DNA of 64,000 bases from Pantoea cypripedii (lineage in GTDB: Bacteria; Pseudomonadota; Gammaproteobacteria; Enterobacterales; Enterobacteriaceae): assembly GCF_002095535.1 (NCBI RefSeq), contig NZ_MLJI01000001.1, forward strand, positions 2,221,832 through 2,285,831. The letters are read 5' to 3'. The notes beneath the pieces were generated by a model that was not told where the DNA came from, did not search any database, and worked only from the letters and a program-made list of their open reading frames with translations. The position numbers and the translations under genes are program-made. Numbering within the stretch: the first letter of the stretch is position 1; the number at the start of each line of letters is the position of its first letter. This document shows positions 18,025-36,818 of the stretch, in pieces.

Positions 18025-19230
18025 TTAGCCAGAAAACCGTGGCTTCTCCATGCGGAATCCCAGCCCGATCAGGCGACCAAAGACAAAACGCAGAAAGGGA
18101 AAGCGGCGGATAAGACCCGGCATCGGGCTTTTACTGCCGGGCTTACGTTTATTGCTGCTCATTTTAATTTGCAGAAATTGTGTTGCCACCGTCGGAAACT
18201 GACGGCGTTTCTGTACCTTCGCCAAATCGCGCAGACTGACATCTCCCTGACGCAGCGGTTCCGTCAGATAATTGGCGGCTGCGACCGCATCCTGAATTGC
18301 CAGATTGACGCCAACCCCACCTATCGGCGACATCGCGTGCGCCGCATCGCCGATGCAAAGCACGCCGGGCTTCATCCAGCTATCGAGCCGGTCAATACGG
18401 ATCGACAGTAGCTTAAATTGCTGCCACTCCTCCAGCATTGACATCCGTTCCACGCTAAAGGGTGCCACGGCAGCGATAGCCTGTTTAAACTGATCCAGGC
18501 CCGCCGCCTTTAATTCCTCAAACTGGCCTTTCGCAATGGTGTAGCCGCATTGCCAGTAGCTGCCGCGATCGATAACGATAAAGTTTTGCCGTGGCCCCTT
18601 ATGCCCCATTCCCCAGGTCGGATCGCCCGGCTGTTTATCCAGCCGAAACCACACCACATCCTTTGATGCGCCAAACGCCCGACTGGTCAACCCGGCGGCG
18701 AGACGGACCGCTGAATTGCGGCCATCAGCCCCCACGACCAGCGGAGCCTGAATTTCCACCGGGCCGTTTTCAGTGTTCGCCCGAATGCCCCGCACGGTGT
18801 CATGCTGGTAGAGAAAGCGGTCGAAAGTGGTGGATTGCAGCAGGGTGAAACCGGCAAACTGCGCGCTTTTCTGCGCCAGAAAGTTGAGAAAGTCCCATTG
18901 CGGCATAAACGCGATAAAACGGCATTGCACGGGCAATCGGGTGAAATCGGCCATGGTAACTTCCTCACCGGCCAATTCAGCCTGCAACTTTTCAGCACGC
19001 TGATGTGGTAAGAGTAAAAGTTCGTCCAGTAAACCGAGCTGATGCATGATTTCAAGCGTAGATGGATGAATGGTGTCCCCGCGGAAATCACGCAGGAAGT
19101 CGGCGTGTTTCTCTATCACCACCACACGTAACCCAGCACGCACCAGCAGATACCCCAGCATCAACCCCGCCGGGCCTCCGCCAACAATGCAGCAATCGGT
19201 TTTCAGGATGTCATTCGCTTCGGGCTTCAT
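18025..19230 (-). CDS. FAD-dependent aromatic-ring-hydroxylase-type monooxygenase, Fur-box promoter
   Basis: 401-residue flavoprotein of the PHBH/UbiH-like superfamily. The FAD dinucleotide motif GGGPAG is at residues 17-22, with VVGADGRNS in the middle and the C-terminal FAD motif CIGDAAHAMSPIGGVGVNLA. The start is the ATG at 19228-19230, preceded by AAAGGAGTGGTT; a longer in-frame reading to 19422 would run through the promoter and is rejected. An exact TGATAATnATTATCA Fur box lies 33-47 nt upstream. Substrate unknown. No homologue in this E. coli interval that I know of, so it is accessory. Confidence 0.85.
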   Translation of the reverse strand: MKPEANDILKTDCCIVGGGPAGLMLGYLLVRAGLRVVVIEKHADFLRDFRGDTIHPSTLEIMHQLGLLDELLLLPHQRAEKLQAELAGEEVTMADFTRLPVQCRFIAFMPQWDFLNFLAQKSAQFAGFTLLQSTTFDRFLYQHDTVRGIRANTENGPVEIQAPLVVGADGRNSAVRLAAGLTSRAFGASKDVVWFRLDKQPGDPTWGMGHKGPRQNFIVIDRGSYWQCGYTIAKGQFEELKAAGLDQFKQAIAAVAPFSVERMSMLEEWQQFKLLSIRIDRLDSWMKPGVLCIGDAAHAMSPIGGVGVNLAIQDAVAAANYLTEPLRQGDVSLRDLAKVQKRRQFPTVATQFLQIKMSSNKRKPGSKSPMPGLIRRFPFLRFVFGRLIGLGFRMEKPRFSG

Positions 19231-19261
19231 AACCACTCCTTTATTAGCACTCGACCAGTTT

Positions 19262-19278
19262 ATGATAATAATTATCAT
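19262..19278. promoter_or_regulatory. Fur box in the monooxygenase promoter
   Basis: ATGATAATAATTATCAT is a perfect palindrome with 8-nt arms around one base and contains the 7-1-7 Fur motif TGATAATnATTATCA without mismatch. It lies in the likely -10 region of the minus-strand gene that starts at 19230. Confidence 0.8.
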
Positions 19279-19288
19279 TTGTGTATAG

Positions 19289-19310
19289 ATGATAATTCTG
19301 CGCTTATCAT
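19289..19310. promoter_or_regulatory. Second palindrome beside the Fur box
   Basis: ATGATAA, 8-nt spacer, TTATCAT: perfect 7-bp arms, 10 nt from the Fur box. The arms use the same half-site sequence, so it may be a secondary, widely spaced Fur site. Confidence 0.55.
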
Positions 19311-19337
19311 GATCATACCCATCTTTTTCCCGTGCCT

Positions 19338-19388
19338 CGTACCTGATAAAATATAACGTCAGCAGGGTTCTAATACTTATCAGGTACG
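19338..19388. repeat. 12-bp inverted repeat upstream of the AT-rich membrane protein
   Basis: CGTACCTGATAA and TTATCAGGTACG are perfectly complementary, separated by 27 nt, and end 18 nt before the start codon at 19406. Either an operator for a dimeric regulator or a 5'-UTR stem. No T tract follows. Confidence 0.65.
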
Positions 19389-19405
19389 CAAGGTAGAAAA
19401 AAACA

Positions 19406-20635
19406 ATGACACGGAGTTTCACAGCTCTTTTTTTTATTATTTTCCTGTGCGCATTTTCTTATTTAAAGCTAAAAGGCATTTCCCACTATTCAGATGATGT
19501 CTGGTTTTCTAATCAGGCACACACGCCAGATATTTTCCAGTGGTTAGTCATACGCTATCAGACCTGGTCTTCCCGCACACCGATTGAATTTGCGTTATTA
19601 AAAATAATAAACCACAAACAAACCTGGGCTTTTTTAAATGCATTTTTTATCGCTATAACAGTGTGTTCATTTTCCGCGATCGTGGCGAAAAATAAAAAAG
19701 AGGTCATTTTATCAAGCCTGACTTTTTTACTGATCATACTTTTCACGATCAAGAAAGGATTTATCAATGAAGGCATCCTGTGGATGACGGGTTCGGTTAA
19801 CTATTTGTGGCCGTTTGCCCTTGCCATATTGGGTTTTGCTCTGCTTAAACGATGCACGACAGAGCAGCATCTCTACAGAAATGCGTTGTTCACCGCGATA
19901 ATCTTTTTCTTGTCGTCGTTCAGCGAACAGCTTGTGGTCATCAATCTCTTTCTGTTGCCGACAATCGCGTTACTCTACCGGGGGCCAGTGCAAAAAATGG
20001 CACTCCTCTCTCTGGCCACCACTTTGCTGGCCTTGACGTATATAATACTTAGCCCAGGAAATGCCAATAGATTACATCTTGAGATTGGGCGCTGGATGCC
20101 TGATTTTGTTAATCTCAACTTTGTTGATAAAGTCCTCATGGGATTAAACCTGGCCTTTGACCAGATGTTCACCGTTCAGCCAATCGCAGTCGGTATTATT
20201 TATTTATGTTTAGCCCTGATACTCCGTAACAATAAAAAGGCGCAAATATTTTCTCTGTTACTGCTTATTGCAACCATCATCTTGTCACTGATTGAACGCA
20301 GAGTTTTTGCTACATCAAATTTTGATGCCATCTATAAGTTCAGTTCAGAGAATATAACCAGCACTTTCGCCATTGCCAGAGCCGCGACGGTTATCATCTT
20401 TGCTCTCGCCACTACCCTGCTGGTGTTCCTGGCGCAACAGGAGAGGAAAGCGGCATGGCTCATTGCGATAGCCTATATCGTCTCGTATTCAGGAACGGTG
20501 ATGCTCGGCCTGTCACCTACCATCTACGCTTCAGAGCAACGAGTGCTGATGGTGTCAGGAATGATGGTGTCTGCGCTGGCAGCGTATCTGGCTCTTCAGG
20601 CGTGTGCAATGCGTCGGAGCAAGCTGCTCCGGTGA
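19406..20635 (+). CDS. Polytopic membrane protein, DUF6056/GT-C-like, AT-rich
   Basis: 409 residues with about ten to twelve hydrophobic segments. After the first membrane span there is a periplasmic-side loop with an acidic pair (YSDDVWFSNQ, residues about 28-37) followed by RYQTWSSRTPIE. A DD/DE pair in this first loop is typical of GT-C glycosyltransferases and DUF6056 proteins that use lipid-linked sugars. The gene is clearly more AT-rich than its neighbours, with many AAA, AAT and TTT codons, which suggests recent acquisition. Weak ribosome site (AAGGTAG, 14 nt upstream). Its substrate cannot be read from the sequence. Confidence 0.7.
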   Translation: MTRSFTALFFIIFLCAFSYLKLKGISHYSDDVWFSNQAHTPDIFQWLVIRYQTWSSRTPIEFALLKIINHKQTWAFLNAFFIAITVCSFSAIVAKNKKEVILSSLTFLLIILFTIKKGFINEGILWMTGSVNYLWPFALAILGFALLKRCTTEQHLYRNALFTAIIFFLSSFSEQLVVINLFLLPTIALLYRGPVQKMALLSLATTLLALTYIILSPGNANRLHLEIGRWMPDFVNLNFVDKVLMGLNLAFDQMFTVQPIAVGIIYLCLALILRNNKKAQIFSLLLLIATIILSLIERRVFATSNFDAIYKFSSENITSTFAIARAATVIIFALATTLLVFLAQQERKAAWLIAIAYIVSYSGTVMLGLSPTIYASEQRVLMVSGMMVSALAAYLALQACAMRRSKLLR

Positions 20636-33376: not shown

Positions 33377-33472
33377 TTTTTAACTGTATGAATTTATTGA
33401 CCTTGATTGTTTTACATCCTGCCAGCATTCGCATAAGGTAGTGAAATTGATTAACTGATGGTGAAATTCATC

Positions 33473-34459
33473 ATGGCAAATGGTAACGACAACCTGCTAG
33501 GCGAATCCAACAACTTTCTTGAAGTGCTGGAACAGGTTTCGCGGCTCGCTCCACTGGAAAAACCGGTGCTGGTGATTGGCGAACGCGGTACCGGTAAGGA
33601 GTTGATTGCCAGCCGTTTACATTATTTATCCGATCGCTGGCAAGGTCCGTTCATCTCCCTTAACTGCGCTGCATTGAATGAAAATCTGCTCGATTCTGAA
33701 TTGTTCGGCCATGAAGCCGGTGCCTTTACCGGTGCGCAGAAACGCCATCTCGGTCGTTTTGAACGCGCCGATGGCGGCACGCTGTTTCTCGATGAATTGG
33801 CGACTGCGCCGATGCTGGTGCAGGAGAAGTTGCTGCGCGTGATTGAATATGGGCAGCTGGAGCGCGTCGGCGGCAACCAGTCACTACAGGTCAATGTCCG
33901 TCTGGTGTGCGCCACCAATGAAGATCTGCCCGCGCTGGCAGCGGAAGGCAAATTCCGTGCGGACCTGCTCGATCGTCTCGCCTTTGACGTCGTACAGCTG
34001 CCACCGCTACGCGAGCGCCGCAGTGATATCCTGGTGATGGCAGAACATTTTGCCATTCAGATGTGCCGCGAATTGGGTTTGCCGCTGTTCCCCGGTTTCA
34101 GCGAACAGGCGCAACAGACGTTGTTGCACTACAACTGGCCGGGAAATGTGCGTGAACTGAAAAACGTGGTGGAGCGCTCGGTGTATCGCCATCACAGCAT
34201 TGAGGAGCCGCTGGATAACATCATTATCAATCCGTTTGCACCGCGCAGCGCGCCGGTTCCGGTGACGGCCAGTAGCGAAAATAGCCAGCCCGCTCTGCCA
34301 CTCGATCTGCGCCAGTGGCAGAACCAGCAGGAACGTCAGCTGGTGGAACGCAGCCTGGCGGAGGCGAAATATAACCAGCGCCGGGCGGCAGATTTACTGG
34401 GGGTTACCTATCATCAACTGCGGGCAATGATGAAAAAGCATGGGGTTGAAATTAATTAA
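33473..34459 (+). CDS. pspF: PspF, sigma54 enhancer-binding activator of psp
   Basis: 328 residues: AAA+ domain with Walker A GERGTGKE, the sigma54-contact loop GAFTGA (in GHEAGAFTGAQ) and sensor motifs, then a C-terminal Fis-type HTH (RAADLLGVTYHQLRAMMKK). There is no N-terminal receiver; control is by PspA. The start at 33473 (MANGNDNLLG) aligns with E. coli PspF; the ATG at 33458 adds five residues. Confidence 0.95.
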   Translation: MANGNDNLLGESNNFLEVLEQVSRLAPLEKPVLVIGERGTGKELIASRLHYLSDRWQGPFISLNCAALNENLLDSELFGHEAGAFTGAQKRHLGRFERADGGTLFLDELATAPMLVQEKLLRVIEYGQLERVGGNQSLQVNVRLVCATNEDLPALAAEGKFRADLLDRLAFDVVQLPPLRERRSDILVMAEHFAIQMCRELGLPLFPGFSEQAQQTLLHYNWPGNVRELKNVVERSVYRHHSIEEPLDNIIINPFAPRSAPVPVTASSENSQPALPLDLRQWQNQQERQLVERSLAEAKYNQRRAADLLGVTYHQLRAMMKKHGVEIN

Positions 34460-34577: not shown

Positions 34578-34694
34578 TTAGTTAATATCGTATATCTCGT
34601 ATTTTTTCAGCTTCCGTCTGATATAGCGAATCTCAAATCCCAGAACGGTAACAGCAATAACAAGCATCCCCACTACAACACTCAGTACAATCAT
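34578..34694 (-). CDS. 38-residue single-span membrane protein, unrecognised
   Basis: ATG at 34692-34694 with AAGGA 6 nt upstream. Encodes MIVLSVVVGMLVIAVTVLGF (one membrane helix) followed by a charged tail rich in Arg, Lys, Tyr and Ile that ends KKYEIYDIN. Short hydrophobic start plus positive tail predicts an inner-membrane protein with cytoplasmic C-terminus. It lies between pspF and a RyhB gene. I do not recognise the family. The topology resembles small stress-induced membrane proteins, but that is only a resemblance. Confidence 0.65.
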   Translation of the reverse strand: MIVLSVVVGMLVIAVTVLGFEIRYIRRKLKKYEIYDIN

Positions 34695-34808
34695 AAGTCA
34701 TCCTTGTCTTAACGAAATTACCCAAGCAAATTGTAACCTACCGTTACTATCAGTAGCTATCAAATTCACAATTCAAGTGATGAGAGTTTACCGCACGATT
34801 TTTCGAAA

Positions 34809-34914
34809 TAGTTTGCGTTGTAGCAAGGCGGCAAGGGAGTGAGTCCCTGGGAGCATACATAAGTATGTGACCAGGGTGAGCGAGTGCAGCCAACACAGCT
34901 ACAACGCAAAGTAT
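34809..34914. repeat. ERIC (enterobacterial repetitive intergenic consensus) element
   Basis: About 106 nt with perfect 13-bp terminal inverted repeats TTTGCGTTGTAGC (34812-34824) and GCTACAACGCAAA (34898-34910). The centre, GTGAGTCCCTGGGAGCATAC then AAGTATGTGACCAGGGTGAG, matches both classical ERIC primer sequences with a few differences. Somewhat shorter than the usual 126-127 bp. It ends 4 nt from the RyhB terminator. Confidence 0.88.
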
Positions 34915-34918
34915 GAAG

Positions 34919-35008
34919 AAAAAAAAGCCCGCAATAAGCGGGCAACAAATACTGGAAGCAATGTGAGCAATGTCGTGCTCTTCTTCGGTAGAGCCACCGT
35001 CGAAGCGC
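34919..35008 (-). ncRNA. ryhB: RyhB-type iron-responsive sRNA
   Basis: About 90 nt on the minus strand, the E. coli RyhB length. The core at 34948-34979 (minus-strand AGCACGACATTGCTCACATT then GCTTCCAGTATT) is identical to the target-pairing core of E. coli RyhB as I recall it. A different 5' stem-loop precedes it, and a terminator follows (GCCCGC-TTATT-GCGGGC then eight T). A Fur box overlaps the promoter just upstream. RyhB pairs via Hfq with mRNAs of iron-using proteins when iron is low. In E. coli ryhB is at an unrelated locus (yhhX-yhhY). Confidence 0.92.
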
Positions 35009-35013
35009 AGAAG

Positions 35014-35036
35014 AATAATAATCATTCTTATTATCA
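35014..35036. promoter_or_regulatory. Fur box of the RyhB gene
   Basis: Minus strand reads TGATAATAAGAATGATTATT, containing the Fur hexamers GATAAT and GATTAT. It ends 6 nt before the inferred RNA 5' end and closely resembles the Fur-bound promoter of E. coli ryhB. Confidence 0.85.
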
Positions 35037-35195
35037 TCTGTAAACCCCTAATTGAGAATTTTTCTCATCTCCACACTAACGTTGTGATTACCCCACCCTC
35101 AGTTTGCTGAAAAAGACACCAGAACTGTCCTTAATTTGGGGAGTGCCCAGCGTTTGCGATACACTCTCGCTATTGCCTCAGAATCGTTGAGTTCT

Positions 35196-36818
35196 ATGCC
35201 AAAATTATTCCCCACGCTGTTGCTTGGTCTCAGCGTATTGAGTGCGTCTGCATGGGCGCTGCCTGCGAACGATATTCGCCACACTGGCTTCGTTTATTGC
35301 GTCAACGGCACGGTGAATACCTTCAATCCGCAGCTGGCCAGCAGCGGGTTAGTGGTCGATACCCTTGCCGCGCAGCTTTACGATCGCCTGCTGGATGTCG
35401 ATCCCTATACCTATCGCCTGATACCCGACCTGGCGCAAAGCTGGGAAGTGCGGGATAACGGCGCGACGTATCGCTTCCACCTGCGTAAAGATGTGGCCTT
35501 TCAGCACACCAACTGGTTTACGCCGACACGGAAAATGAATGCCGACGATGTGGTGTTCAGCTTTGCCCGCATGTTTGATCGCCAGCATCCGTGGCATAAC
35601 GTTAACGGTGGCAGCTACCCTTATTTTGATAGCCTGCAATTTGCCGACTCGGTGCAAAGCGTGAAAAAGCTCGATGACGATACCGTCGAGATTCGCCTGA
35701 ACAGTCCGGATGCCTCGTTTCTGTGGCATCTCGCCACCCATTACGCGCCGGTGCTCTCCAAAGAATATGCCGATCAACTGACGGCCAAAGGTCAGCAGGA
35801 AAGACTGGATCGGGAACCCGTTGGCACTGGCCCATTCCAGCTCAGCGAATACCGCACCGGGCAATATCTGCGCCTGGCGCGCAACCCGCAATACTGGCGC
35901 GGGGTGCCGCGTCTCCAGCAGGTGGTGATCGATCTTGGCGTCGGCGGCACCGGTCGCCTGTCGAAATTACTGACCGGCGAATGCGACGTGCTGGCGTATC
36001 CAGCCGCCAGCCAGCTCAGTATTCTGCGTGACGACCCACGTTTACGGATGACGTTGCGTCCCGGCATGAATATCGCTTATCTGGCCTTTAACACCCGCAA
36101 GCCACCGCTGGATCGCCCCGAAGTACGGCACGCGCTGGCGCTGGCGATTAACAATGAACGTCTGATGGAGTCGATTTATTACGGCACCGCAGAAACCGCC
36201 GCGTCGATCCTGCCGCGCGCCTCGTGGGCATATGATAATGAAGCGCGCGTAACAGAATATAACCCGGCCAAATCGCGGGAAGCATTGAAGGCACTCGGCG
36301 TGGAGGATCTGCATTTGCGTCTGGTGGTGCCCACCGCGTCGCAGTCGTGGAACCCCAGCCCGTTGAAAACCGCCGAGTTGTTACAGGCCGATCTGGCGCA
36401 GGTCGGGGTGCGCGTCACCATCGTCCCGGTGGAGGGCCGTTTTCAGGAAGCACAGCTGATGGCGATGAACCATGATATTACCCTCACCGGCTGGGCCACC
36501 GACAGTAACGACCCCGACAGCTTCTTCCGTCCGCTCCTGAGCTGCGCGGCGATTCGCTCGCAAACCAATTACGCGCACTGGTGCTCACCCGCCTTCGATG
36601 AGGTGCTGCAACAAGCGCTGCTGTCACAGCAGCTTGCGGCGCGCATTGAGAGTTACGATACGGCGCAGCAGATGCTGGCACAGGAGCTGCCGGTGCTGCC
36701 ACTGGCCTCCTCACTGCGGTTACAGGCTTATCGCCACGATATTAAAGGCCTGGTGCTGAGTCCGTTTGGTAACGCCTCATTCGCAGGCGTTTATCGTGAT
36801 GAAAGCAGCGAGGAATAA
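35196..36818 (+). CDS. sapA: SapA periplasmic peptide-binding protein
   Basis: 540-residue binding protein of the Sap ABC transporter. Signal peptide [20 protein letters not shown] ending at ALA-type site; family 5 body with [20 protein letters not shown]. The ATG at 35196 is chosen since the longer reading (35136) lacks a signal peptide at its start. In Salmonella and Haemophilus it binds antimicrobial peptides or haem; the E. coli sapBCDF part has been linked to putrescine export. Confidence 0.94.

Follow-up and report, generated by a model that had tools for sequence, protein, structure and literature searches.

A second RyhB gene between pspF and sapA in Pantoea cypripedii, with a Fur-like palindrome upstream of its predicted promoter

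The RyhB gene between pspF and sapA

The region between pspF and sapA was analysed within a 64-kb stretch of Pantoea cypripedii DNA (64,000 nucleotides; hereafter the window). On the minus strand of this region, the Rfam model RF00057 (RyhB) was matched over its full length at 34982-34919 (74.1 bits, cut-off 55, E value 5e-12). RyhB is a small RNA that helps bacteria to save iron; it is repressed by Fe-Fur, induced at low iron, and pairs with its targets through a core sequence with the help of Hfq. One further Rfam match was obtained in the window, the small RNA FnrS (RF01796, 22028-22143, minus strand, 123.5 bits), located 12.8 kb from the RyhB copy. The 31-nt pairing core, GCACGACATTGCTCACATTGCTTCCAGTATT, recurs letter for letter in E. 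coli K-12 ryhB and, following addition of the preceding A, which was read by eye in both sequences, spans 34948-34979.

The features used to assign the gene to RyhB, i.e. the model score, the pairing core, a terminator with a U run and a Fur box predicted from sequence in the promoter, were all found. An earlier note, made from the letters of this DNA, had described a minus-strand RyhB homologue with this exact core, a transcript layout of about 90 nt, a terminator and a Fur site overlapping the promoter, and each of these elements was recovered by the model search and the sequence scans. Judged from the position of the −10 element, the transcript probably starts near 35009 and is approximately 91 nt long. 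The interpretation given in the note held in part: a RyhB homologue that has a Fur box of its own, and its reading as a second paralogue, stand, whereas the relocated copy and the unusual locus do not. Coordinates of all features are collected in Table 1. PspA, encoded beside this copy, also scored above its NCBIfam cut-off.

Table 1. Features of the pspF-sapA region in the window
Feature	Position	Strand	Basis
pspF, flanking gene	33458..34459	+	NCBIfam NF008622, above cut-off
Dispersed repeat, presumably ERIC-like, near the terminator end of RyhB	34805..34915		20 places in own genome
Intrinsic terminator, stem-loop and T run	34919..34943	-	6 G-C pairs, 5-nt loop, then 8 T
RyhB paralogue (small RNA), predicted transcript	34919..35009	-	RF00057 match 34919-34982; promoter and terminator scan; alignment of 61 relatives
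Target-pairing core, same sequence as in E. coli K-12 RyhB	34948..34979	-	31 nt compared, one A by eye
5′ hairpin (predicted)	34976..35009	-	MFE fold; type common to 63/87 pspF-sapA copies; covariation
Promoter, sigma-70-like: −35 TTTACA, 18-nt spacer, −10 TATTAT	35015..35044	-	10/12, promoter scan
Proximal Fur box (predicted), overlaps −10	35017..35035	-	15/19 to consensus
Distal Fur-like palindrome TGAGAATTTTTCTCA, putative Fur site	35053..35067		About −44 to −58 from the predicted start
sapA, flanking gene, directed away from ryhB	35199..36818	+	NCBIfam NF011689, above cut-off; 77% identical to E. coli SapA

The proximal Fur box was scored over 19 positions against what we take to be the E. 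coli Fur consensus. Its score of 15 compares with a maximum of 13 over 220 shuffled upstream regions, and 66 of 71 pspF-sapA copies scored at least 14, shuffles giving at most 13. Between 34500 and 35260, two terminator-like sites (0.6 in shuffles) and three promoter-like sites (1.1 in shuffles) were counted.

The 5′ hairpin and the terminator covary among relatives. In 61 distinct sequences with the hairpin type of the window, 98.6% of the cells of hairpin and terminator together were paired (99.7% for the terminator helix), five pairs had changed on both sides, and the observed values were reached in none of 500 shuffles. Slid versions of the structure dropped to 34-58% pairing, a measure that favours the unslid version, the structure having been derived from the window sequence. 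The remaining 24 of the 87 pspF-sapA copies have a 5′ part of another type. Fold comparison also confirmed the earlier observation that the predicted 5′ hairpin and the terminator are unlike those of E. coli.

Copies of the dispersed repeat were also present in pspF-sapA loci of relatives, in some of them several in a row. Between pspF and ryhB, a 38-codon open reading frame (34578-34694, minus strand) could encode a small membrane-like peptide; among the loci compared, one other (L203) has it. When plasmids were searched with the pspF-ryhB region, 81 records matched, none of which covers 80% of the query; the 20 listed cover 44-47%, and where a feature was named, the match lay in the pspF part.

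RyhB copies in the genome, the genus and the family

A whole-genome search with the Rfam RyhB model, proposed earlier for determining copy number, gave two matches in P. cypripedii (6.55 Mb, three contigs). The other copy scores higher (87.4 bits, 74.1 for the window copy) and is adjoined by gntR, with GntR above its NCBIfam cut-off, and by a gene for a YhhY-like acetyltransferase, the best NCBIfam match of which is PRK10140 (196 bits, under its cut-off of 236). In E. coli, as had been stated, ryhB is flanked by yhhX and yhhY; the window copy lacks flanking genes of this type and has pspF and sapA in their place. Because the E. coli-type place, at yhhY-gntR, is occupied by another copy in this genome, the window copy is a second RyhB paralogue, one of the two possibilities raised earlier.

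Comparison of the pspF-sapA gap across Pantoea and relatives showed that the locus is a normal one for the genus, contrary to the earlier description of it as unusual. RyhB was matched in 59 of 60 genus genomes, P. cypripedii included (58 above cut-off), and in 57 of these 59 a copy lies at pspF-sapA; of the two others, one genome measures 2.9 Mb and the second is 74% complete. At the level of the family, 92 of 149 genomes matched RyhB; of the RyhB-less ones, the 20 listed are all 2.4 Mb or smaller, and 37 others lie beyond the listing. Two of the 92 belong to the genus and 89 of the other 90 were classified, G110 with one weak match being left out. Among these 89 genomes (one per genus, same family), a pspF-sapA copy is present in at least 30, a copy at yhhX, yhhY, yhhW or gntR in at least 78, and one or more copies elsewhere in at least 37. 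The orientation of pspF and sapA around RyhB was identical in all 71 loci measured, some stretches containing just one of the two flanking genes. Considering the best 80 of 481 named sapA loci, RyhB lies upstream of sapA in 59, which by title include Pantoea, Erwinia, Mixta, Winslowiella, Sodalis, Edaphovirga and two Serratia; the 21 without RyhB are by title 13 Serratia, six Citrobacter and two Tatumella.

A quick tree was built from 166 short rows, comprising all fetched family copies and the copies from ten genus genomes. Copies grouped by locus and not by genome: the changes needed were 7 for the yhh copies (shuffled mean 55.6), 4 for the pspF-sapA copies (36.4) and 7 for the others (36.5). 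Support in the tree was weak, with nine of the 163 inner branches starred, and some pspF-sapA copies fell outside the main pspF-sapA group. Grouping by locus suggests, but does not prove, an old duplication, after which the second copy may have moved in other genera. Further copies in other genera of the family lie elsewhere, e.g. near a gene that, from its protein, we take to be TrpA-like or YeaQ-like.

The palindrome upstream of the promoter

TGAGAAaaATTCTCA is present upstream of the −35 element in most pspF-sapA copies of RyhB, in addition to the proximal Fur box; in the window, this second palindrome at 35053-35067 had been missed in the earlier note. The distal site was scored with a 14-position Fur-type motif at all loci, using the final locus classification. 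E. coli K-12 RyhB, which is like the window copy in its core and in the Fur box in its promoter and unlike it in locus (yhhX-yhhY), 5′ hairpin and terminator, scored 8/14, as did the yhh copy of P. cypripedii itself, against 13/14 for the window copy. Within the genus, 55 of 57 pspF-sapA copies scored at least 12 and 50 of 57 at least 13; in other genera, 26 of 30 scored at least 13. A score of 13 was reached by four of 78 yhh copies in the family and two of 35 in the genus (five more genus copies scored 12), and by four of 40 copies elsewhere. Shuffled stretches, evaluated with the initial locus classification, never exceeded 11.

The palindrome travels with ryhB, being mostly present at sapA loci with RyhB and absent from those without it. 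Among the best 80 of the 481 named sapA loci, which are related and not independent, it was found no more than 600 bases from where the sapA match starts in 53 of 59 loci with RyhB and in none of the 21 without, of which only five have pspF inside the examined 3 kb and most have other neighbours. Likewise, the 420 bases upstream of E. coli sapA contained no score above 9/14. On these loci, the reading of the palindrome as a general feature of sapA was rejected.

The palindrome might nevertheless be an operator of sapA, or a site for another regulator, and not a Fur site of ryhB. It sits between divergent genes, and the pattern TGAGAANNNTTCTCA occurs three times in the genome, in neither of the two further cases at classic iron genes: one of these sites is flanked by a glycerol dehydrogenase-like and an efflux-type gene, the other by a gene for a dehydrogenase of the PQQ glucose/quinate/shikimate family and a LacI-type regulator gene. 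The neighbours of these two exact palindromes do not show which regulator is involved. Against this, besides the distribution among sapA loci with and without RyhB and the low scores upstream of E. coli sapA, the palindrome is a single position off the Fur-type motif TGAKAATNATTMTCA, which occurs at eight places in the genome, the reversed control occurring at none. On balance we consider an operator of sapA or a site for another regulator rather unlikely, and a Fur site belonging to ryhB is the reading followed here.

One of the eight perfect Fur-type palindromes, TGATAATAATTATCA, is located at 19263-19277, within a listed open reading frame (18025-19422, minus strand). As it precedes the part of this frame that matches the FAD-dependent oxidoreductase family, it is probably upstream of the true start.

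We tentatively propose that Enterobacterales possess two anciently separated RyhB genes, of which the pspF-sapA one, with its own tandem Fur operator, may respond at an iron set-point unlike that of the yhhY copy, giving a two-threshold switch; the second copies scattered over other enteric genera may be its relocated descendants. This proposal is possible but still doubtful. The upstream palindrome, being specific to one paralogue, offers an easy way to test whether the iron level at which the gene is induced differs between the two RyhBs. Neither the palindrome nor a locus-wise history of the copies was found treated in the available parts of the open-access PMC literature on RyhB.

Published counterparts and predicted action

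The gene and its place are already known from work on Erwinia amylovora and Pantoea ananatis, as given in the parts of the papers available to us. In E. amylovora, ryhB is listed at pspF/sapA in the orientation > < >, with RF00057 and a terminator, and was confirmed by Northern blot (PMC4070566, Table 1); publication of this locus dates back to 2014. Its level in an hfq mutant was 2.7% and 2.1% of wild type, and a second RyhB, Hrs15, lies elsewhere in that genome (PMC4070566). The E. amylovora RNA resembles the window copy in family, flanking genes, orientation, terminator and the presence of a second RyhB; it differs in genus and in its size by RNA-seq of 140 nt, compared with the predicted 91 nt or so (PMC4070566).

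For P. ananatis LMG 2665, the available text lists RyhB (pPAR246) and RyhB2 (pPAR433), both as Hfq-dependent, although qRT-PCR of RyhB2 lacked the expected fall in an hfq mutant (PMC6749038). pPAR246 is on the minus strand, 12.5 kb from fnrS (PMC6749038) as against 12.8 kb in P. cypripedii, and from this distance it is probably the pspF-sapA counterpart. The LMG 2665 genome indeed has a RyhB copy between pspF and sapA, which, unlike the window copy, has lost the last core bases (58.7 bits). The published RyhB2 primers fit the yhhY-type copy of LMG 2665 and not its pspF-sapA copy; RyhB2 of that paper is thus the yhhY copy, and its numbering is opposite to the term second copy as used here (PMC6749038). 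Paired paralogues, as in P. cypripedii, are also described in the available parts of reports on Salmonella (RyhB-1/RyhB-2; PMC7944605) and Yersinia (RyhB1/RyhB2; PMC10342277). With the published pspF/sapA ryhB of E. amylovora as the counterpart, RyhB work in Pantoea and Erwinia should take both copies into account.

Taken as a whole, the window copy is very probably the second of two RyhB genes, controlled by Fur and iron and acting via Hfq and its core on mRNAs for iron proteins. Family, core, promoter, operator-like sites, terminator, conservation of the locus and the second copy are established by sequence; Fur binding, the response to iron, Hfq dependence and the targets are predicted for P. 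cypripedii. With iron plentiful, Fe-Fur would occupy the Fur box at the −10 element, and probably the upstream palindrome too, and block transcription. When iron falls, the RNA of about 91 nt would be made from the pspF-sapA gene and, via Hfq, its conserved core would pair with mRNAs of iron-using proteins, lowering their translation and stability.

It appears very improbable that the window copy is a non-functional duplicate, silent or in decay. It does score below the other copy, a reduced genus genome of 2.4 Mb has a weak pspF-sapA copy (31.8 bits), and two loci of Tatumella in which pspF is near sapA lack RyhB; however, relatives keep the core, the Fur box, the hairpin and the terminator, with compensatory changes, and the E. 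amylovora counterpart is transcribed, as stated in the available part of PMC4070566. The other possibility raised earlier, a single ancestral ryhB that moved from yhhX-yhhY to pspF-sapA, has nothing in its favour except the differing locus and is refuted by the two copies, the better-scoring one (87.4 bits) still being at yhhY-gntR in the same genome. Among the stretches fetched, both loci were seen in 33 of the 59 RyhB-positive genus genomes (one with a third copy), only the pspF-sapA stretch being classified in 24 further ones, where the other match was not fetched or none was present. We regard such a move as having next to no probability, and the copy question is settled in favour of a second, conserved RyhB without relocation. 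Practically no weight is given to the 95-codon open reading frame at 34750-35037 (minus strand) as a real gene and it was rejected: it is open and has an ATG start, yet it crosses the Fur box, the small RNA, the terminator and the dispersed repeat, and no Pfam family matched it at E 0.001.

The textbook target of RyhB is sodB. In the genome, the Fe/Mn superoxide dismutase family was matched once (G000:C1:42485-43084), with 42% identity to E. coli SodB over the first 106 residues of the latter. From this one partial match, sodB appears to be absent from P. cypripedii and is probably no target here. Ranked among 500 shuffles, the predicted RyhB duplex was 4th with the sdhC leader (a 100-base stretch picked by eye, with the start codon not fixed), 30th with sdhD and 51st with the superoxide dismutase gene; the E. 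coli controls ranked 38th (sodB), 58th (sdhD) and 127th (sdhC). As the scoring did not single out these known E. coli targets, the result for the sdhC leader is only suggestive, and it is a possible target.

RyhB-like sequences were also noticed on plasmids. In Pantoea sp. At-9b, plasmid pPAT9B02 (NC_014839.1) carries a third RyhB-like RNA beside aqpZ (L180:1865-1925, 56.3 bits), with core and terminator and with poor Fur-like scores upstream (8/14 near, 7/14 distal). On the Klebsiella pneumoniae plasmid NZ_CP076548.1, a stretch resembling the RyhB core (L335:2001-2057) lies partly under a gene for a hypothetical protein, near a gene annotated as the siderophore receptor Fiu.
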